Assembly: GCA_018302465.1 (NCBI GenBank)
Contig: JAGVZQ010000018.1
Span: 1-44,463, forward strand
DNA from: Candidatus Woesearchaeota archaeon
GTDB lineage: Archaea; Nanobdellota; Nanobdellia; SCGC-AAA011-G17; GW2011-AR20
Length of the DNA stretch: 44,463 nt
Direction: 5' to 3'
Below the pieces are notes generated by a model, which saw only the letters and a list, made by a program, of their open reading frames with translations, did no database searches and was not told the DNA's origin. The stretch's first letter is position 1, and each line of letters opens with the position of its first letter. Both the position numbers and the translations under genes were made by a program. This document shows, in pieces, positions 25,323 to 37,556 of the stretch.

Positions 25323-26030
25323 TTAACTGATTCTAATCTTGTAAAGAGGGAGTGCCGGAGCGGTCAAACGGGCTGGATTTTGAAATCTTTCATAAAAAAG
25401 ATTCAGAAGGCTTAGCTTAGGAGTTTGACTGAGACACCCAGTATTTTCATTTACAGAATAATTCAATAAACTCATAAAAAACATAGACAAAGAAATTAGC
25501 CATAAACCCAAATAACCTAAAAAGACAGGTATCATAATGTAAGATTTCTTAAGTAAATTAATATACTCCTTTTCATTTATTTTGAAATAAGAAAGGAAAG
25601 TAAGATAAGCAATTACAAGAAATATTAAAGACAATACAAGATCAAATCCCTTAAAGATAAGAAGTATAAATAATATGTAGGATATTAAACTGAAAACAGA
25701 AAAATAAACTAAATATAATTTTTTCTTATTGAGATAATAAAAGTTCAGACCCTGAAATATAACGTAAACTAAAAAAATTATAACAGGAATAATAATTAAA
25801 AGAGTATAAGCAGTGCCTGCAGCATTACCAATATTATTTATTAAATTCTGGGCGCCTGCAGCATCTACATTTGGATCTATAGCATTAATCTGCGGAGCGT
25901 AGGCATAAATAACAGTCAATAAACTTTTTAATTTAAGTTTTGCATAAACTAAAAATAATCCCAAAAATAAGACAAACCCTATATCTAACAAATAAGTTCT
26001 AAAAATATTTTCTTTGATTGTTTTTTTCAT
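25323..26030 (-). CDS. Five-helix membrane protein, last gene of the murein-hydrolase operon
   Basis: The 235 residues include about five transmembrane helices (near 14-32, 70-96, 103-125, 128-147, 162-186). The extracytoplasmic loop after helix 1 contains NAIDPNVDAAGAQNLINNIG. The last 30 residues overlap, in antisense, the tRNA-Ser-like relic, so the original C-terminus may have been shorter. It starts three bases after the giant gene's stop. It may anchor or export its neighbours, but nothing in the sequence proves that. Confidence 0.72.
   Translation of the reverse strand: MKKTIKENIFRTYLLDIGFVLFLGLFLVYAKLKLKSLLTVIYAYAPQINAIDPNVDAAGAQNLINNIGNAAGTAYTLLIIIPVIIFLVYVIFQGLNFYYLNKKKLYLVYFSVFSLISYILFILLIFKGFDLVLSLIFLVIAYLTFLSYFKINEKEYINLLKKSYIMIPVFLGYLGLWLISLSMFFMSLLNYSVNENTGCLSQTPKLSLLNLFYERFQNPARLTAPALPLYKIRIS
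25346..25386 (+). pseudogene. Degenerate tRNA-Ser-like 5' half
   Basis: GAGGGAG, TG, a class-II-type D arm CCGGAGCGGTCAAACGG and CTGGATTTTGAAATC resemble the first half of a tRNA-Ser(TGA). A few bases on, GATTCAG pairs with CTGGATT like the other side of an anticodon stem, but no T arm or acceptor complement (CTCCCTC) follows. The region also reads as the 3' end of the membrane-protein gene on the other strand. It is probably a relic; a split or heavily altered tRNA is less likely. Confidence 0.4.
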
Positions 26031-26033
26031 ATT

Positions 26034-29000
26034 TTAAGCGAAAAATTGATTTGCTCCATCAACTATAGATAAAGCAATCTTTTCCTGAGTTCCTACATCT
26101 AAAAGTTTTACTCTGTCTCCAGGGCTGCATAAATATCCAAGCTCTACTAAAATTGCAGGAGCTTCAACACTAACGCCAAGGCTATCCTGTAAAACACTAA
26201 AATCCGCTCCGCTAATACCTCTGTTCTTAGTTCCAATATAATTCACAATAAGGGGCTGGATTTCTTGAGCTGCTCTAAGGCTTTCATCATAATATTCATT
26301 CTTAATTTTGCACTGGTTTAAAGAAACAAAATTAGTAACTCCATCCTGTAAAGAGTCTTCATCTTCAGCACAAAAAACATAAGCTTCAGTCCCATCAACG
26401 CATTCAGTCTGTAAATTATTTATATGAACGCTTAAGAAAAGATCAGGATTATATGAGTTAGCAATTTGTTTCCTTCGGTAAAGACTGATATAAGAATCAT
26501 CATTCCTGGTCATAAAAACAGTCGCTCCATTTTTTTCAAATTCTCCTTTAAGTTTCTTAGATATATCAAGCACAAGATCAGATTCCTTGATAACTCTGCC
26601 ATTTTCATTATGGGTAGTCCCGCCATCAGTTCCACCATGTCCTGAATCAATAACTATAGTCTTTCCGTTTAACCCTATAGAAAAAATAGGTTGTAATTGA
26701 TTAGAATTTTCAGATAATTGGGCAAAATTTAAAGAGTTAATAATATCAATCTGTTCTTGTGTAAGCATGTTTCCATCAGCAGTGTCAGAAGTTGAAGCAA
26801 CAGGATTCCAATTTACTTTATCAAAACTCCACTCCCAAGTTTTACTAATATCCTCTTTATAATAAGTAGTATCTACTGAACTTTCAGAAACAGGAGTATA
26901 TGAATAGGTGCTATCAGGAGCAGGTCCATCAAATTTATTAACAGTAGCAACTAAAACTGCATCCTTAACAGCATCTATAGTAGGATTATAATTTTCAAGA
27001 TAACCAATAAACTCCCTATGACTTTGAGGCAATGCTTGTTGGGCATTATTTTCTCCTTCAGCTGATTGTACAAGATTCCAGTTGGTTTTTTCTGAACTCC
27101 ACAACCATCCATTATCATATTTATAGTAAAGAGCATCTGCTACTGCAGAAGCAGGATCATATACCAGTATTCCATCTTTGTCAGGAACAAACGTAGATAA
27201 AATAACTTCCCCTTGTTCCTTGCTTAATATGACAGACCTAGTTGGAACAGTAAGAGTAGTTTGTCCACCTGTTGCTTCATTACCTGATACTTTATTAACA
27301 AACTTATTCTCATTATCTAATTGATAAGTGCCATCTTTTTCTTCTGAAAATAATAATGAAATAAGTTTAGGATCAACATCCATCCTTTCTAGCAAAGCCT
27401 CATTCTTTTCTCCCTGAGCAATATTAAACTTGCCATCCTGATCTACATAACCAACATAATAATCAAATGAATTACTTCCCTTAAGTATAGGATAATCAGC
27501 ATCAATAATCCCCATATTTTTTATATCTAGCAACTTGCCATTGTTTATATAATATTTATCTAGTCCTGGATATTCTATGTATAATCTTGCACTAGAAAAG
27601 AATTTATCAGAATATTTTAAAATAAAATCTTGTCCATCTGGAACAGTAGGTACATCAGGAGCAGGTGCAGAATTTGTTGCCTCATTAAGTATCTGTGCTT
27701 CCCTGTAAGCCTTTACAGAAACACACTTATCCTCGGACCATGCACAATCAAATACACAAGGATCCCATTTCTCACACTCCACCTCATCTTTATAAGCAGA
27801 ACATTTTTCTCTTTGAACGGTATTACATGAAAAACATTCATTAAGTGTTAGAAGGTTGGGAGATGTTTTTGAATTATATAAACAGGACCCCATATCTTTA
27901 GTCCTTTGATGACATACATCTTTGTTATGAGAAGAAGGAGAAAAAATAGTTCCAGCATTAATGTCAGAACAGGCATTACTATCAACTAATTTAGACCCTC
28001 TCTCTATTCTACATTGTTCTTGTGTCAGTTCTCTTTTGCTAACAGATCCGCCATAACAAGGAAAATAACCTATTTCCTCATAATAACCCATTTCCTCATC
28101 ATTGACACAATAGTAAACATCATCAGATACACAAAGAGTGAAAGTTGCTGTAGCCTCTCCAGTTATCTGAGATGTTTCAGTTGTACTAACCTCCCCAACT
28201 TTACTTCTTATGAGCTCATTGAAACTCTCATCCTTAGCCAAAGCAAGATATATCTGTCCAATTCTTAATTGAGCCAAAGCCCCAAAGTCAATAGACTTAG
28301 CAGCAATAAATCTTAAACTGCTTTCATCATCTTCATTGGAAATAAATTTAATAAACTCTTTTTTAATTTCATCTCCAAAAATACCTTCTTCATTAAGTAA
28401 AATATTAAACATATCTTTCTCAATCAGTGCATTATAAATTACATTAAACTTATTCTCAAATTCTTCTCTTGTAAGGCCGAGACCTAAATCATCTCCAGTC
28501 TCCTTTTGTACTATATTCTTAATATTCTCATCTACAATCTCCTTATTGTTAAGTCTTATAGTTCTTGTATCAATCCAGCATTGTCCTAATTCAAGACCTT
28601 CTTCATCCTCTCCACATTTTCCAACAGCCTGCCAGTTACCTTCAACACCACCAGTGCCAGGATTGCTTATGCTGCAGACTCTGATTAAACCTCCAGTAAC
28701 ATCTCCAAAGCTAGTGGGCCCACCAATTGCAGGACCAGTTTCATCTTCAGGGACACACTCTTCTTTTGTTTTTATTTCTTTATTCAGTTCATTAACAACA
28801 GTCTTATCTGTGATGTATTGAGCGCCAAATTCAGTTGTTGCTCTTCCAAATCCGCAGTTTAATTTTCCATTAATCTCGACGCAAATTTCAGCATATCCAC
28901 TCCTTCCTATAAAATCAAGATTCTTGCTTACAAATTCTCCCTTAGGAACAAACCCTCTCGCACTTCCTCCAGCTCTATCAGTAACATAAGCAACATTCCC

Positions 29001-32000
29001 TAAATTATCTTTTAAGTAAACACTATACCTGATATCAGTAGCTCTTCCAGCATAAATATGATAAAATACATTATATCTTGATTGCTCTTCAACATTGCTG
29101 AATATTCCTTCTGCTCTGTTTAACCTTGTATCACCTGCGCTGCTTGCCCAAGGATACTCATCAAAGAAAGCTGTAAACTGTGGAGGACTATCTGGTGTAG
29201 TTATCTGATCTATAAAGTTTCCAACACCTGGAACTGTGCCTGCATAAACATTCCTACATACTTCAGTCCCAACTTGTCCTAAAGATCTTGACTTATAAGA
29301 TGCCAAAGCAGATGTTGAATAATCATCAACAAAGAACTTTGCTGAATCTCCTGTTTGTTCCAGTCTCTTTGAAAATTCACCAGGAGAATATTCTCCTCCC
29401 CCCTCAGTATTACTTAATAATCTATCTCCTATAGAAGAAACAATTCCCCCAAAACTTGAAATCACTGAGGTACTTTCTCTCCACAAGGTTTCACAAATAA
29501 ATACACTTTTTATCTTATCACATATTCCTACATTTTGCCCTGTTGCTTTTGAAGTTTGTAAACATTGTTCATATCCCTGAAACAAACTTCTTATTCCTTC
29601 TAAACCAGATTGTACACCAGGTAAACAGACTGGAACTAGGTCAGTTCCTCCAGCCCCAACAAAGTTTGGATAGCCAAGAACTAAGGAGCCAATTATTCCA
29701 GTCTCAGGAACACTATCAACATTCCATCTGCCTCCTAAGTTAAACCTGGAAGTAGGGCACATAACAGGATCACAGACATTAAATATAATCTGACAGTCTC
29801 CCGCACTCATAACATCAGTACAATGTATCTTGCTGCTTATCTCTTGATTTGCTGAACTTGAAAAACTACAGATAAGATTTCCTACTCTTGTTGTTCCCGG
29901 CTTACATAATCCAGCTCTTGCAACTGCTTGTTTCAATTCCTGCTCTTTTCTCAAATTTAATTTAACTAAACTGTCAGAAGTTATTATTACATCATCATTA
30001 TCACACATCACTCCATTAGGTCCGACATTTCTTTCATCAACTGTCTTTGGAGTTCCATCTCCATAATATTCTAATACTCTTACATAATTCCCATTTGAAG
30101 TAGGAACACAGAACGGCCTGCCATTCTGATAAAATTCTACAACTCCTGGCCTAACATAACTCTGCCTTATTCTCTCTCCAAAATAGTTTTCTGTTTCAGA
30201 ATAATAGTATTTGCCTGCTTTATCTCTATATAATGTACTCCCACTTTCTGTAATAACTACATTATTAAGACTTCTTTCCAGCTTTGTCTTTAAATCCAAT
30301 AATCTCCTATTTTTAGGATCATTTTTTATTCTTTCATTTAATGTAACAAGATACTCACTGCCTTTAACTTCCTCAATAATAACTATGTTCCCATTAGGAT
30401 CAAGTGCCTTGCCATCCACGTAAAATACAGGTTGAATATCGCCAAATTCTTCAATGACAGTTTGACTCTGTACAGCTTGCGATAATTGATTTAATCTTGT
30501 ATCAAATACCTCCTTTGCAAAATTATCTCTCTCACTTCCGCTTAATCCACTCTTACTTGTAGCAGTATTAGAGTAATCTCTTGCAGCAGTTATATCACTC
30601 TTAGTCTTTTCTAAGCTTGCTTGTTTTGCTTTTAATTGCTCATCTAAGGAATTCAAGTTTTGGCTTTCAATCGCATATTCAACACTTTCAGGATTTAAAG
30701 TCTTAAGCTTATCCTCTGAACTTCTTACCTGTAATTGAAGTAAATTTAAATCTCTTGCATCACTTTGAGGTATTAATATATCTGCCCGACTACTAAGTTT
30801 ATACTGAGAATATTCAGCAGCATAACCAGTTTCTAAAAATTCATTAGCAGATTTAATATTTCCTGCTTCTTCATTTATTCTTGCATTGATATAATCTTTA
30901 TTTTTTATCACACATTCATCATAGTTTGAATAATCCTTGCCAACTCCGCTATTCTTGCTACAGTATTGACCAAAACCACTCTTCCCATCAGCCCCCCTCA
31001 TCACAAGATCTCTTGCTTCAGAAACCTCACTACTTACAGTTAATAAATTCTTTAAGGATATAAATGCAAAAACACCTATACATATTGCCTTCCATGTTTT
31101 TACAGTTTTATCTAATCCATCAATAATTCTATCAAGTTTTTTAATAACAGCTCGCGTAGCATTTATCTGTGAATCTATCTGTTCCGTATTAAACTGAATA
31201 GATCTTCTTTCTATTGGAATATTAACATCCACAACGCTAATGCTTTTACCAACCCCTGTTCCTGGAAGTACTGTAACATAGGCCTGCTTTTTAGTATCTA
31301 AACTAATTATCTGTAATACTACAGACTTATCGCCATTGGTTTGTAAAGTTTTTACCTCATCTAAGTTAACAGTTTCAGTTCTTCCTTTTATTGTAGAATC
31401 TTCTGAAAATATTTGTCTTAAAATAATTCTGTTTGAAGCAATGGAATCAACAATCCAGTTGAAATTTCTGTTCTTGTCATCCACTCCATTAATAACAACA
31501 TCAGTAACCTTAAGTGTTTTCTGCTCGTTATTAATACTTAGTGTTACCGTTGGCTCTTCTTGTGCACTCACTCCATCTAACCTGGTAAATTTAACCTTAA
31601 TATTTTCATCTTCCAAAAATACTTCAGCATTGCTTAAATCCAGATTTTCAGATATTTGTCTGTTTATTTCTTCTTTTTCCTCATTAGCTTTTGTAAATAA
31701 CTCCCCCCCACTCACTAAACTATACGCAGATAACGCTTGTCTTTTATAAAATAAATTATTCTCGCTTAATCCCTCATAAGCTTGTCCTAAATAATAATAT
31801 GCTGAGTTCAGTTCATTTTCCTCTAATCCTCTGGATATAGACTCTTTTATCTCTGCTATAGACTTACAATACAATCTTATACTGGTCTGTGTTAAAGCAT
31901 CTGCATCCTCAAATTCTACATTCTGGCAGACATCTTCATCTTCTGCTACAGCAGTTGGAGAAGACTCTTCCTTTAATTCAAGGGAGTAGGTTGCTCTAAC

Positions 32001-33560
32001 TTTGTTTGTAGCTTCAGTAATAGTTATCCTTCCATCTTTATTAGCATCTAATCTAGAATTTTGATTATAGGCTATTGTTCCAGAATTAAATATTACAAAA
32101 TTAGAGTCTCTGCCAATACCATTAGGATATAACACAGCCATATACACATCTTCGAGATTACCTAACCTAATCTTATCTTTATAGCTATTTAAATAATTCT
32201 TAACTAAATCAAGTTGGTTTATAGAGGACATTGTTCTCAAACTATTTGTACTCGTTCCTAAACTGTCTGCTGTACTTGGTAAAAATTGTATCAAACCCAA
32301 TGCATTGGAATCAGAATTTTCTGCCCTAGGATTAAACCCAGATTCAAAAGCCATAACAGCCATTAAATGATTAGGATTTATTCCCAGATCATTAGATATA
32401 ACCTCAACTTTATTAACAAACCCAGATTCAAATTTGTTTGCATATTTTTTATAACCAGCAGAATTCACATCAACCTTATTAATACTAGCTGAAAAAGATG
32501 AAACAACAGGCTCTGTTTTCTTGCTAAGGTAAACAATCTTCAAGCTCTTCCTTTGCCCCTGGTTATTAACAATAATAACTTCATCATATTGTGTATCTTC
32601 TTTAATTGAATTTTTTATTCTCTCAACTTTCCAGTTGCTTCCAGGATATAATCTCTGTCCCTCTACTAAGTTATATACATCTCCATTTATTTCAAATGTA
32701 GCAGTATCTTTTGGTAAAATGATATCATTTAATCTAACTCTAAAGAAGCTATTCTGAACCGGTCCAAAATCCTGCAACCTAATCGGAGAGCTAATCTCAC
32801 CTCTGTTGAGAGTAAAAGTTCTTATTCTCCTTAATCTCCCATCATAAACGCTTAAAGTAACACCCTCATCACTTATTTTATCAGCCCTGATATAACCGCT
32901 GTTTGACCAGAAAGATGCCTTGCCATTTTCATTGATCCAGTTTTCCTCATCAGTTCTTTCAATTAATCTTAAATCCTTTGAGCCAAAACCAGAGAGAGTA
33001 TTCTCAAGATCAAATCTAATATCTAAGGTTATTTCAGCATTTATAGTAGCTCCGCCACCTGCACTCAAACTAGCCCCGCCAGAGCTAATAGAAGCTAATG
33101 TATCATTAAATTCAGGCAATTCATTTTCATTTGTCTTTCTCAGTTCAACTATCAAATAGCCCATATCAAAAAATCTTCCATTATTATCTACAACATATCT
33201 CTTGTCTCTAGGTTTGATGTACTGGACATTAGAAACAATATTATTAGTGCTCTTTCTTCCAGAAATTGCAACTCTCTCTATTTGAGGAATTCCAAACAAA
33301 GGTGAACTGCTTGGTGAATTATCTGCAAAAGCTAAACTACCTAATGTAGCGCCTTTCAAGTACACATAAACAGGCACATTCTGCTCTTCTAAAACATTAG
33401 TTGGAACTATTGTAGGCTCAATCTTGTCAACATTTACAATTATCGATTCTCCAGTGTCTTCAATCGTATTAGAAAATATAGGAATATTACTTTGCGCACT
33501 TGCAAAGCTACTTGAAACTATTAAAACCATGCAAAGTATTGAAAATATTTTATTTATCAT
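26034..33560 (-). CDS. Giant secreted protein with lytic transglycosylase and amidase domains
   Basis: The 2508 residues begin with a Sec signal peptide (about 1-22, ending SFASAQ). Beta-rich domains reach about residue 360. An SLT-type lytic transglycosylase follows (about 375-520), with the catalytic Glu in AFESGFNPRA near 405, GLIQFLPSTA, and a C-terminal EF-hand-like DANKDGRITITEA near 503, an arrangement typical of phage and secretion-system murein lysozymes. Coiled-coil and Cys-rich regions fill the middle, with one possible membrane helix near 815-835. The C-terminus (about 2297-2508) is Amidase_3 with all key residues: DSGHGG, KESDL, SVHIN, VELGYL. Archaea lack murein, so bacterial walls are the likely substrate. 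Confidence 0.88.
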   Translation of the reverse strand: MINKIFSILCMVLIVSSSFASAQSNIPIFSNTIEDTGESIIVNVDKIEPTIVPTNVLEEQNVPVYVYLKGATLGSLAFADNSPSSSPLFGIPQIERVAISGRKSTNNIVSNVQYIKPRDKRYVVDNNGRFFDMGYLIVELRKTNENELPEFNDTLASISSGGASLSAGGGATINAEITLDIRFDLENTLSGFGSKDLRLIERTDEENWINENGKASFWSNSGYIRADKISDEGVTLSVYDGRLRRIRTFTLNRGEISSPIRLQDFGPVQNSFFRVRLNDIILPKDTATFEINGDVYNLVEGQRLYPGSNWKVERIKNSIKEDTQYDEVIIVNNQGQRKSLKIVYLSKKTEPVVSSFSASINKVDVNSAGYKKYANKFESGFVNKVEVISNDLGINPNHLMAVMAFESGFNPRAENSDSNALGLIQFLPSTADSLGTSTNSLRTMSSINQLDLVKNYLNSYKDKIRLGNLEDVYMAVLYPNGIGRDSNFVIFNSGTIAYNQNSRLDANKDGRITITEATNKVRATYSLELKEESSPTAVAEDEDVCQNVEFEDADALTQTSIRLYCKSIAEIKESISRGLEENELNSAYYYLGQAYEGLSENNLFYKRQALSAYSLVSGGELFTKANEEKEEINRQISENLDLSNAEVFLEDENIKVKFTRLDGVSAQEEPTVTLSINNEQKTLKVTDVVINGVDDKNRNFNWIVDSIASNRIILRQIFSEDSTIKGRTETVNLDEVKTLQTNGDKSVVLQIISLDTKKQAYVTVLPGTGVGKSISVVDVNIPIERRSIQFNTEQIDSQINATRAVIKKLDRIIDGLDKTVKTWKAICIGVFAFISLKNLLTVSSEVSEARDLVMRGADGKSGFGQYCSKNSGVGKDYSNYDECVIKNKDYINARINEEAGNIKSANEFLETGYAAEYSQYKLSSRADILIPQSDARDLNLLQLQVRSSEDKLKTLNPESVEYAIESQNLNSLDEQLKAKQASLEKTKSDITAARDYSNTATSKSGLSGSERDNFAKEVFDTRLNQLSQAVQSQTVIEEFGDIQPVFYVDGKALDPNGNIVIIEEVKGSEYLVTLNERIKNDPKNRRLLDLKTKLERSLNNVVITESGSTLYRDKAGKYYYSETENYFGERIRQSYVRPGVVEFYQNGRPFCVPTSNGNYVRVLEYYGDGTPKTVDERNVGPNGVMCDNDDVIITSDSLVKLNLRKEQELKQAVARAGLCKPGTTRVGNLICSFSSSANQEISSKIHCTDVMSAGDCQIIFNVCDPVMCPTSRFNLGGRWNVDSVPETGIIGSLVLGYPNFVGAGGTDLVPVCLPGVQSGLEGIRSLFQGYEQCLQTSKATGQNVGICDKIKSVFICETLWRESTSVISSFGGIVSSIGDRLLSNTEGGGEYSPGEFSKRLEQTGDSAKFFVDDYSTSALASYKSRSLGQVGTEVCRNVYAGTVPGVGNFIDQITTPDSPPQFTAFFDEYPWASSAGDTRLNRAEGIFSNVEEQSRYNVFYHIYAGRATDIRYSVYLKDNLGNVAYVTDRAGGSARGFVPKGEFVSKNLDFIGRSGYAEICVEINGKLNCGFGRATTEFGAQYITDKTVVNELNKEIKTKEECVPEDETGPAIGGPTSFGDVTGGLIRVCSISNPGTGGVEGNWQAVGKCGEDEEGLELGQCWIDTRTIRLNNKEIVDENIKNIVQKETGDDLGLGLTREEFENKFNVIYNALIEKDMFNILLNEEGIFGDEIKKEFIKFISNEDDESSLRFIAAKSIDFGALAQLRIGQIYLALAKDESFNELIRSKVGEVSTTETSQITGEATATFTLCVSDDVYYCVNDEEMGYYEEIGYFPCYGGSVSKRELTQEQCRIERGSKLVDSNACSDINAGTIFSPSSHNKDVCHQRTKDMGSCLYNSKTSPNLLTLNECFSCNTVQREKCSAYKDEVECEKWDPCVFDCAWSEDKCVSVKAYREAQILNEATNSAPAPDVPTVPDGQDFILKYSDKFFSSARLYIEYPGLDKYYINNGKLLDIKNMGIIDADYPILKGSNSFDYYVGYVDQDGKFNIAQGEKNEALLERMDVDPKLISLLFSEEKDGTYQLDNENKFVNKVSGNEATGGQTTLTVPTRSVILSKEQGEVILSTFVPDKDGILVYDPASAVADALYYKYDNGWLWSSEKTNWNLVQSAEGENNAQQALPQSHREFIGYLENYNPTIDAVKDAVLVATVNKFDGPAPDSTYSYTPVSESSVDTTYYKEDISKTWEWSFDKVNWNPVASTSDTADGNMLTQEQIDIINSLNFAQLSENSNQLQPIFSIGLNGKTIVIDSGHGGTDGGTTHNENGRVIKESDLVLDISKKLKGEFEKNGATVFMTRNDDSYISLYRRKQIANSYNPDLFLSVHINNLQTECVDGTEAYVFCAEDEDSLQDGVTNFVSLNQCKIKNEYYDESLRAAQEIQPLIVNYIGTKNRGISGADFSVLQDSLGVSVEAPAILVELGYLCSPGDRVKLLDVGTQEKIALSIVDGANQFFA

Positions 33561-35482
33561 ACAAACTCCGGCAATCTGAAATTATTATTCAGATTATTTC
33601 TTTCAATAGTATCATAATTATTAATTAAATCATTTTGTGTTAATGAAGTTTCTTGTACAATTGTATATAATACCAATTCATTATTCCCTGCTAAATCTTC
33701 TCTATTTATCCTATAATCAAATGAGTTTCCTCCTATTAATACATGGTCTAATTTGGCTTCTTCTAATGTCTGTTTAACACATTTCTCTCCAACAAATAAA
33801 TTTCCAAATATGCCCAGTCCTAAAGGCTTTGAGCACGTATTTATTTCTTGTTTAGGAATAATCACTTCTCCATTTTGCAGAACATTAATGTTTAGTTTAT
33901 AATTCCCTTCTCTTAGTTGAACTGAAGTTAAACTTGGATAAGTAGCAAAATAGCTATATCCATTATCAGCGGTAAACTCAATATTTACAATCTCATTACT
34001 GACATCCCTTACAGTTCCTGTTTCTTTGTCTATTAAAATTACCTTAATAGTTTTAGTATAAACTGATTCTAAAGTTAATGAAACACTTGAAACTGCATTT
34101 GTGTCTAATGCTAATTCTGATTTATCATAACCTTCTTTCTCAACAATTATCTTTCCGTTCAGACATTGTGGGAATCTCTCATTTAGTCTTCCATTAACAG
34201 TCTTTCCTATATCGCATACGGAGCTGAAGCATTGGAAAGTAATATCCACATCGTCTATAGGCAGAAGAAAGTTATCTTCATTAAAACCAAGAACACTCAC
34301 ATCCAGATTATGATTCCTTACCTCGCAGACATTAAATTCATCATTTTCATTAACAGTATTAAGTTCAACCTGATTTTCTCTTGCCTGGTTATTATCAACT
34401 ACTACCATGAATGCATATTGGAAAATATAGCCCTCTTCCTCTAAGGTAACCAACACCGGATAAGACACATCATAAACAAAATGGTAGCTGTTTAAGCATA
34501 AAAATCTTGATAAATACTTAAAAGGGCCCTTATTCTCTATAATACTTTCTCCTTTCATAATATCTCCATTATCAGGCATAACTTGCATATTAAACGGCCA
34601 ATTAGTTGAGTACCTGAAATTTACATTAGCAGTGCTTCCTATTCCTAAACTGTAATATTTTTCATTGCCAGAATTCTTTACATTTTGCACATTTGTTTCT
34701 ACAATTTTCTTAAAGTCATCTTCCACTTTGCTTTTTTGCCATGTCTTTTTATCACAGCTAAACCCAACATTAGTTCCAGGTATCTCATCATAAAGCACAA
34801 TCATATCTATAGTCATTTCTTCAAAGAACAAATTCTGGTTTTCTTTCTCCATTATTTGCCTGCCTAAAGAATAAAGTTTGCCTAATTTGACATCCAGAAT
34901 AACAGAAAAACTGTTCAGGTTTGTTTTTATCCCATTAAATGTAACTTCCAATGGGCTTTCAACATTAATTAATATTTGATTATTTTTTATGCTGACATCC
35001 ACATTAGTATCTGAATTATAATCAACATTATATACATCTAATTGCTTCAGGTTTTCATAGCAGGAATTAATATTACCCTTTATATAATCCTCTAATTCTG
35101 TTTCTAAATCTTGTTGAGAAGGTATATTTACTGTGTTAATGCCATTAGGTGTTTTATAAAACCAGTAATTTACATTTAAGGCACCATTTCCAAACAAGTC
35201 TAAACTATCCCCAAACTTAACTAAAGGATTTTTATTAAAACTCTGCTCTAAATTAGCCTTCCCGCCTTGCAATCCAATTAAATCAGCGCCATCTCTTGCT
35301 ATATCTAATATGCATGACTCCATGAGGCTTTTTGCAGGAACTAATTCTGGCCTTACTTCTAAATCTATTTTAGATTGCTGTAACAGATTATTGCCAACTA
35401 AATAAAATGATAAAACAATTACTGCAACTATAATAATCCCTATAAGAATGTAAATGCTGGTCTGACCTCTTTTTTTTAGCAT
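33557..35482 (-). CDS. Pilin-like membrane-anchored surface protein
   Basis: The protein is 641 residues from the ATG at 35482; a TTG two codons earlier is less likely. KKRGQ followed by TSIYILIGIIIVAVIVLSFYLV is a class III (type IV pilin-like) signal and anchor, with likely cleavage before the Gln. The rest is extracytoplasmic and beta-rich, with a PEGA/carboxypeptidase-regulatory-like segment near residues 445-475 (GKIIVEKEGYDKSELAL). The stop overlaps the ATG of the giant gene (ATGA), so the two are coupled. It may form a stalk or scaffold for the giant protein, which is inference. Confidence 0.8.
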   Translation of the reverse strand: MLKKRGQTSIYILIGIIIVAVIVLSFYLVGNNLLQQSKIDLEVRPELVPAKSLMESCILDIARDGADLIGLQGGKANLEQSFNKNPLVKFGDSLDLFGNGALNVNYWFYKTPNGINTVNIPSQQDLETELEDYIKGNINSCYENLKQLDVYNVDYNSDTNVDVSIKNNQILINVESPLEVTFNGIKTNLNSFSVILDVKLGKLYSLGRQIMEKENQNLFFEEMTIDMIVLYDEIPGTNVGFSCDKKTWQKSKVEDDFKKIVETNVQNVKNSGNEKYYSLGIGSTANVNFRYSTNWPFNMQVMPDNGDIMKGESIIENKGPFKYLSRFLCLNSYHFVYDVSYPVLVTLEEEGYIFQYAFMVVVDNNQARENQVELNTVNENDEFNVCEVRNHNLDVSVLGFNEDNFLLPIDDVDITFQCFSSVCDIGKTVNGRLNERFPQCLNGKIIVEKEGYDKSELALDTNAVSSVSLTLESVYTKTIKVILIDKETGTVRDVSNEIVNIEFTADNGYSYFATYPSLTSVQLREGNYKLNINVLQNGEVIIPKQEINTCSKPLGLGIFGNLFVGEKCVKQTLEEAKLDHVLIGGNSFDYRINREDLAGNNELVLYTIVQETSLTQNDLINNYDTIERNNLNNNFRLPEFV

Positions 35483-35484
35483 AA

Positions 35485-35607
35485 TCAATCCCCTTTTACC
35501 CTCTTTTTTATAAGATCCATAATTTCTGTATTTATATCTTTCTTTAAACTAGATTTAAATTTCTCCCATAATTTTTCATCCTCAATTAGAAGAAGGTACT
35601 TTTTCAT
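35485..35607 (-). CDS. 40-residue ORF upstream of the pilin-like gene
   Basis: The frame encodes MKKYLLLIEDEKLWEKFKSS followed by a Lys-rich helix ending KKRVKGD. Helical propensity and charge resemble small RHH-like or leader peptides. It ends three bases before the ATG of the pilin-like gene, whose GGGG ribosome-binding site lies inside this ORF, and an ATTTAAATA box lies about 25-30 bases upstream. It could be a real small protein or a translated leader. Confidence 0.45.
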   Translation of the reverse strand: MKKYLLLIEDEKLWEKFKSSLKKDINTEIMDLIKKRVKGD

Positions 35608-36569: not shown

Positions 36570-37556
36570 ATGAAAAAACTGGAGAACTATTTAGAGCGTA
36601 TAGACGAAAATATATTTATTCACGGTTTAGATTTGAAAAGTTTTCATTGCAAACATAGTAAAAAAGTAATGCCTATAATAGAGAATAAATTTCATTTTTC
36701 TACATATTACTACTGGATCCAGGGAAAGAGTCCAATTCCAATAAGTGTCCTAAAGATTTTTTCTAGAGTAGATAAAAATGTACTAGACAAAGCATATAAA
36801 GAAATGAAGGCAGCATCCGTTGGAAATAAAAAAATATTTCTTCCAAAAAAGTTCGATAAAAAACTAGCATACCTTATAGGCTCAATACATGGAGATGGAG
36901 GGATGCATAAAAACCAAAAATATGTCACAATAGCAAATGATTCAAAAGAATACCTAGAAGATATGATAAGCATATTATTCCAAGATATATTTAAAGTAAG
37001 AACTAGAGTATCTAAATTTAAAAATATTTACAGAGCAGAAGTAGGAAGCCGAGCTGTATGTTCCTTCTTATCATTATTCTGCCCATTCGGGAAAAAAACA
37101 GGACTACTCCATATACCAAAAGAGGTTAAGTCAGATGAAAAGTTAAAAATAAGCTATCTTTCTGGTTTGTTTGATACAGACGGATGCATAGGCTATGGAA
37201 AAAATAACACATATTTCACATTTGTACAAAGAGACAAAATATTCGTTTTCGAGGTTTACGAATGCCTAAAATCACTTGGAATACATGTAAATGAACCAAA
37301 AATATTTTATTCCCCTGTAAAACCATATAGCGAGGGAAGAGATTTAGAAGAGTGGAGAATCTACATAGGATCAAAAAAAGATTTATACAACTTATTGTCC
37401 AAAATAAGTTTTTATCACCCAAGTAAAAAAACTAAAGCAGAAAAAGTAAAAGTTATAGTGGGCTTGGTAGGATTTGAACCTACGACCTTCTCCATTTTAA
37501 GCTCTGCTCGTCAAGGAAATGTCATAGCCTCTAGACCACAAGCCCACAAAACCTAA
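36570..37556 (+). CDS. LAGLIDADG homing endonuclease-like protein 3
   Basis: The frame is 328 residues; the first 295 are a normal double-motif endonuclease with LAYLIGSIHGDG at 99-110 and YLSGLFDTDG at 196-205. An HTH-like part precedes the first motif. From about residue 296 the frame is the antisense of tRNA-Val (the GFEPTTF-type pattern of a tRNA read backwards), so the C-terminal tail is an accident of position and no earlier stop exists. It has its own TATA-like ATTTAAAAGG near 36540 and is not inside an intron. It may target a tRNA gene. Confidence 0.82.
   Translation: MKKLENYLERIDENIFIHGLDLKSFHCKHSKKVMPIIENKFHFSTYYYWIQGKSPIPISVLKIFSRVDKNVLDKAYKEMKAASVGNKKIFLPKKFDKKLAYLIGSIHGDGGMHKNQKYVTIANDSKEYLEDMISILFQDIFKVRTRVSKFKNIYRAEVGSRAVCSFLSLFCPFGKKTGLLHIPKEVKSDEKLKISYLSGLFDTDGCIGYGKNNTYFTFVQRDKIFVFEVYECLKSLGIHVNEPKIFYSPVKPYSEGRDLEEWRIYIGSKKDLYNLLSKISFYHPSKKTKAEKVKVIVGLVGFEPTTFSILSSARQGNVIASRPQAHKT
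37459..37545 (-). tRNA. tRNA-Val (GAC) with 14-base intron
   Basis: Exons total 73 bases. Acceptor GGGCTTG/CAAGCCC, discriminator A, D stem GTC/GAC, anticodon stem TTTCC/GGAGA, loop TTGACG-T after splicing (anticodon GAC), T arm GTAGG-TTCAAAT-CCTAC. The intron sits at the canonical 37/38 position. The fold is a textbook bulge-helix-bulge: TTGA pairs with TTAA, with 3-base bulges CGA and AAT. The third LAGLIDADG ORF runs into it on the opposite strand. Confidence 0.94.
37495..37508 (-). other. tRNA-Val intron (position 37/38)
   Basis: The intron AGCAGAGCTTAAAA is bounded by cuts after the second base of each 3-base bulge, the standard EndA geometry. Confidence 0.88.

Follow-up and report, generated by a model that had tools for sequence, protein, structure and literature searches.

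The locus described here raises the question of how a lytic transglycosylase (LT) resembling those of phages came to lie inside a very large protein of a Woesearchaeota archaeon, and of what such a protein might be used for. The window (the whole stretch of DNA analysed, 44,463 nucleotides of contig JAGVZQ010000018.1) encodes this protein on its minus strand, and the answer favoured here, which we hold to be probable, is that the phage-type LT is exchangeable cargo on an ancient, giant secreted DPANN protein that would attack the wall of neighbouring bacteria.

The giant protein and its genomic setting

The contig is archaeal and of Woesearchaeota-type DPANN origin: genes for S3Ae, an archaeal-type S15 with S13_N, TFB and SRP54 proteins lie near the giant gene, an archaeal SRP RNA is present on the same contig, and a contig of the same genus has been deposited as Ca. 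Woesearchaeota. The genome to which it belongs, that of a tiny archaeon of symbiont type, measures 0.75 Mb and is 97.7% complete in 30 contigs. Elsewhere in the window, a LAGLIDADG-type ORF (36570-37556, plus strand) overlaps a tRNA match on the minus strand (37459-37545). The same genome also holds a second SLT ORF, of classic type, 190 aa long and truncated by the contig end (L025, G000:C1:9854-10426); it shares a 10.4-kb contig with a nearby cyclopropane-fatty-acid synthase (CMAS) ORF, and this contig could be a bacterial contaminant or a transfer.

The ORF of the giant protein (26034..33560, minus strand) is 2,508 aa long and combines an archaeal scaffold with two peptidoglycan hydrolase domains, all features being read on the minus strand. 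A Sec-type signal peptide (residues 1-23, MINKIFSILCMVLIVSSSFASAQ, 33492..33560) was predicted by eye and by hydropathy, and a conserved N-terminal scaffold domain (residues 5-340, 32541..33548), found in most scaffolds, was delimited with a custom HMM. A first cargo position, slot A, lies between this domain and a conserved middle scaffold domain (residues 554-920, 30801..31901), which includes a hydrophobic segment at residues 824-842. These are followed by a conserved Cys-rich scaffold core (residues 1237-1674, 28539..29852, alignment A1), a pair of Trp/Tyr-rich repeats in the tail (residues 2129-2189 and 2216-2278, 26727..27176) of a type common to 22 scaffolds, and slot B in the C-terminal tail, filled by an Amidase_3 N-acetylmuramoyl-L-alanine amidase (residues 2302-2503, 26052..26657). 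Slot A is occupied by the phage-type LT, assigned by profiles, AF2 and Foldseek. The initial annotation had placed a transglycosylase at 32000-32440, in mid-protein; the site is right, the domain is slightly wider (residues 372-531, about 31968-32447), and it actually falls within the first fifth of the giant protein.

The giant gene stands in a conserved arrangement. The gene upstream (33557..35488, minus strand, 643 aa) overlaps it by 4 bp, and its product begins with a pilin-like leader of class III-like type, KKRGQTSIYILIGIIIVAVIV. In 101 of 112 scaffold loci a homolog of this gene sits immediately upstream on the same strand, and homologs also precede very divergent giant genes. The downstream gene (25323..26030, minus strand, 235 aa, about five membrane helices) starts 3 bp after the giant gene and has a homolog downstream in 33 of the 112 loci. 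In the same genome there is a prepilin peptidase, together with a pilus-type ATPase and two matches to platform proteins. Judged by its sequence pattern, the upstream protein may be processed and assembled as a pilin. The match to the pilus-type ATPase consists of two parts separated by about 1.6 kb in a single frame of 1,008 aa (G000:C27:57073-59136), the pattern that an intein or an insertion would give.

Two peptidoglycan hydrolase domains

Residues 372-531 form a member of the SLT (GH23) superfamily, of phage or baseplate-hub type and predicted to be catalytic. Pfam SLT matches residues 391-462 with 38.0 bits against a curated cut-off of 21.3, and the phage profiles phrog_4928 (E 3e-42) and phrog_196 (baseplate hub, E 2e-38) cover the whole domain; together these scores rule out a chance match as the source of the LT call. 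The best PDB match by sequence is 9udh (E 4e-32), named in the structure library as a bacteriophage lytic transglycosidase, and identity to LTs of named phages reaches 48%. An AF2 model of the domain built from a 40-sequence alignment has a pLDDT of 95.3. Its best Foldseek hit is again 9udh, and named phage transglycosylases are included among its viral structural matches. The possibility, raised at the outset, that the best matches might fall outside the SLT fold was not borne out, the top PDB hits being lytic transglycosylases and a cyanophage ejectosome protein, and the suggestion of a phage-type murein enzyme agrees with the profiles, with 9udh and with the similarity to named phages.

The three motifs on which that suggestion was based were found as described, with GLIQFLPSTA, YMAVLYPNGIG and DANKDGRITITEA at residues 422, 473 and 505 of the minus-strand ORF. 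The ES motif with the predicted catalytic glutamate (E406, within FESGFNP, codon at 32343..32345, minus strand) and the GLxQ motif (G422-Q425) are both present and are invariant in alignments A2 and A5. Glu406 and GLIQ are unchanged although the three other scaffold-borne LTs share only some 50% identity with the copy in the window. An EF-hand-like loop (DANKDGRITITE, residues 505-516, 32013..32048, minus strand) follows the YMxxLYP region and has the consensus LDxNxDGxITxxEA in alignment A5. The third motif of Slt70/MltE-type enzymes, AxYNxG, is absent and YMAVLYPNGIG stands there instead, as in the phage-type group, so the domain is not assigned to the classic Slt70/MltE type. A resemblance to type VI secretion effectors had also been proposed; no T6SS-type domain occurs among the Pfam hits of the giant protein or of the scanned neighbours, and sequence comparison revealed no VgrG in two long bacterial relatives, which is a weak test of a type VI link.

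The tail amidase, absent from the initial annotation, matches the Amidase_3 profile over residues 2302-2503 with 142 bits against a cut-off of 27, and its zinc and catalytic residues (H2308, E2326, H2379 and E2473) are present and aligned with those of homologs. It shares this profile and these residues with the Amidase_3 enzymes 4rn7, LytH (7tj4), CwlV (1jwq) and AmiC (4bin), but unlike them it is attached C-terminally to an archaeal scaffold, about 1,770 residues from the LT. The Trp/Tyr-rich repeat beside it, about 60 aa long (YYKYDNGWLWSSEKTNW), occurs in 45 copies in 22 scaffolds, located in the tails and in some genomes also at a third site in the middle domain; it is possibly a wall- or glycan-binding module.

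An archaeal scaffold with variable cargo

The initial annotation had proposed fusion of the transglycosylase to archaeal modules, and indeed the domains flanking the LT are kept in archaeal relatives that lack it. A search with the whole protein found homologs in 34 of 41 relatives (54% identity in G259, of the same family, and 58% in G287), most of them lacking the LT and amidase stretches. Of 371 genomes from the phylum, 189 contain a match to the Cys-rich core (E<=0.001), nearly always as a single gene per genome and mostly in frames of 1,200 to 3,200 aa, the matches being weak outside the order of the window archaeon and its sister families. By these sequence comparisons, the N-terminal, middle and Cys-rich core domains are archaeal and conserved across much of the phylum. 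A viral origin of the scaffold was rejected, since viral contigs and phage records yielded no relative of the core. Neither the scaffold core nor the upstream protein has a PDB relative by sequence, and an AF2 model of the core from three sequences reached a pLDDT of only 31.

What the slots contain varies between relatives. In slot A, the phage-type LT is carried by the window genome, G259, G287 and G279, a classic SLT by G073, G282, G280 and G284, and a metallophosphoesterase by G064 and G109, with other segments or a mere short linker in further relatives; two genomes have an SLT inside the middle domain, beyond slot A. On the core tree the four carriers of the phage-type LT form one clade (SH-aLRT 100) and the four carriers of the classic SLT are scattered, forcing at least two changes. 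The homolog in G287 carries both hydrolases, phage-type LT and amidase; G259 and the G279 fragment have a C-terminal end without the amidase, so the cargo of slot B was lost or gained separately. In G084, the phage-type LT has an ORF of its own that immediately follows a divergent giant gene, an arrangement that supports a functional tie between the two.

Pfam matches in 88 tails comprise SLT (18), M23 (five), Amidase_3 (four), NlpC/P60, GDSL and 3D (two each), and glucosaminidase, DPBB (RlpA-like), VanY and DUF2272 (one each), and those in 88 segments of slot A and the middle domain comprise SLT (nine), metallophosphoesterase (two) and glucosaminidase (one). The recognisable cargo is thus mostly peptidoglycan-active, the main exceptions being ankyrin repeats, GDSL, metallophosphoesterase and a transglutaminase-like match. 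In many scaffolds no hydrolase was recognised at all, so that the scaffold may originally have had a role other than wall cutting. Three close scaffolds of one family (L055, L277 and L278, in G064, G100 and G109) have a distinct cargo set, with a metallophosphoesterase in slot A in two of the three and a tail with 3D and a GDSL hydrolase in two of the three. No Pfam match was obtained for the roughly 170 aa that occupy slot A in the large sister family f54, and none above the cut-off for the slot A segment of G285 (L056:8610-9179), which contains WRHNNPLNIKYG and may resemble phage structural or lysozyme-like proteins.

The proposed transfer of the LT from bacteria was examined in a tree of 82 archaeal, bacterial and viral LT domains, in which the archaeal copies are scattered among those of bacteria and viruses. 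All four copies borne on scaffolds fall into a single clade (98/90), which comprises the window genome and three others and spans at least two genera of one family, by which measure the fusion of LT and scaffold is not recent. An origin deep within an old archaeal clade had been named as the outcome that would speak against transfer. A single clade of 12 archaeal LTs, and with it a deep single archaeal ancestry, was rejected by an AU test (p-AU 0.0014), and a grouping of the four scaffold-borne with five free-standing archaeal LTs was not rejected (p-AU 0.24), both p-values being weakened by the choice of groups after the tree was seen. These results fit several entries of such LTs into archaea from a bacterial and phage pool. 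The composition of the LT region shows no oddity, its GC of 0.31 being close to the 0.34 of the gene, and thus gives no sign of recent arrival.

Two further observations were made in passing. Sister phage-type LTs (L139 and L150, 100/99) occur in the archaeon nzgw56 and on a contig of Nomurabacteria (CPR), which suggests transfer between ultrasmall symbionts of different domains. The contigs L125 and L126 are nearly the same length and have an identical match score and frame, yet were deposited as Bacteroidales and Woesearchaeota, respectively, and one of these bins is probably wrong.

Proposed function and comparison with known systems

The probable role outlined above, an attack on the walls of neighbouring bacteria, would proceed as follows. 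The signal peptide would export the giant protein, which would then be displayed on the cell surface or released from it, and the pilin-leader protein encoded upstream would probably anchor it or assemble with it. The LT would cut the MurNAc-GlcNAc strands of murein and the tail amidase would sever the stem peptide from MurNAc, so that a single molecule could attack both parts of the bacterial wall. The target would be a neighbouring bacterium, whether host, prey or competitor, and the swapping of cargo could let the lineage track changing bacterial walls. The sequence-level claims are firm; the hydrolase activity, the surface location and the bacterial target we infer. It is quite possible, if short of probable, that the pilin-leader protein and the giant chassis, whose two or more cargo slots lineages would have loaded repeatedly with different peptidoglycan cutters from bacteria and phages, constitute a phylum-wide surface machine that breaches or kills bacteria on contact.

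The same enzymes could instead serve scavenging, releasing amino acids and sugars from the walls of dead bacteria by digestion and sparing live cells. This has already been proposed for Pacearchaeota (PMC11537232) and two complementary cutting activities would suit digestion, but the conserved giant scaffold and the adjoining pilin-like gene fit use on contact better than a diffusible enzyme, and we regard scavenging as rather unlikely. Adhesion, in which the LT and amidase would bind the bacterial wall uncut for attachment to a host, appears distinctly improbable, since both enzymes retain their catalytic residues, which are also conserved in diverged copies; in its favour, binding or attachment is proposed for such proteins in passages of Castelle 2021 (PMC8204110), and the Trp/Tyr-rich repeats beside the amidase may resemble binding modules.

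Bacterial lytic transglycosylases usually act on their own cell's wall, and remodelling of the archaeon's own envelope would be the corresponding role here. No Transpeptidase (PF00905) or Mur_ligase_M (PF08245) was found in the window genome or 20 relatives, bacterial controls being positive, which makes a self-target unlikely and bacterial murein the likely target. Pseudomurein, with its beta-1,3 links and talosaminuronic acid, is not an expected substrate of SLT enzymes. Self-remodelling and attack on a pseudomurein-walled archaeal host are, taken together, very improbable. The chance that a bacterial or phage domain was joined onto an archaeal contig by assembly or binning is negligible: the genome is in 30 contigs, but the frame is open over 2,508 codons and the separately assembled G259, G287 and G279 have the same domain in the same place, with both hydrolases in G287, and this shared insertion in three other assemblies excludes contamination or a chimera in practice.

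To our knowledge, the hosts of most Woesearchaeota and Pacearchaeota are not known. An orthologous giant protein that has repeatedly gained murein cutters is strong genomic evidence for bacteria as their hosts, prey or rivals, and the different wall cutters on one conserved protein point to a lifestyle of attacking or exploiting bacteria. The giant proteins supply concrete enzymes and genes with which to test this, and indicate that phage-type wall-cutting parts are re-used by cellular archaea.

Peptidoglycan degradation by Woesearchaeota has been discussed earlier (PMC9723730). Slot modularity, a phage-type LT, its pairing with an amidase and a partner gene were not found in the literature searched, which covered the main texts of freely accessible papers. 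Archaeal peptidoglycan hydrolases that kill bacteria, with homologs reportedly prominent in Nanoarchaeota (PLoS Biol 2025, PMC12352652), are likewise archaeal enzymes directed against bacterial murein, but the available passages describe modular hydrolases from a genome survey and do not mention a giant scaffold with slots. Phage LTs of the 9udh, phrog_196 and phrog_4928 type share with the present domain the profile, the fold, GLIQ, the YMxxLYP region and the EF-hand-like loop, whereas here the domain lies within a secreted archaeal giant protein and is not part of a virion.

Large DPANN proteins with an LT domain have been reported before: fam00969, as described in passages of Castelle 2021 (PMC8204110), comprises large extracellular proteins from the same archaeal groups, which can reach 3,000 aa and contain a murein-like transglycosylase domain whose proposed target is the bacterial wall. 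At the level of this description, the giant protein agrees with the family in being of Woesearchaeota type, 2,508 aa long and equipped with an SLT domain and, by eye, a signal peptide. In those passages the transglycosylase is a feature of the family, whereas here it is the cargo of a slot that is often empty or otherwise filled, is of phage type, and is accompanied by a second cargo, the amidase, and by a conserved pilin-like partner gene.
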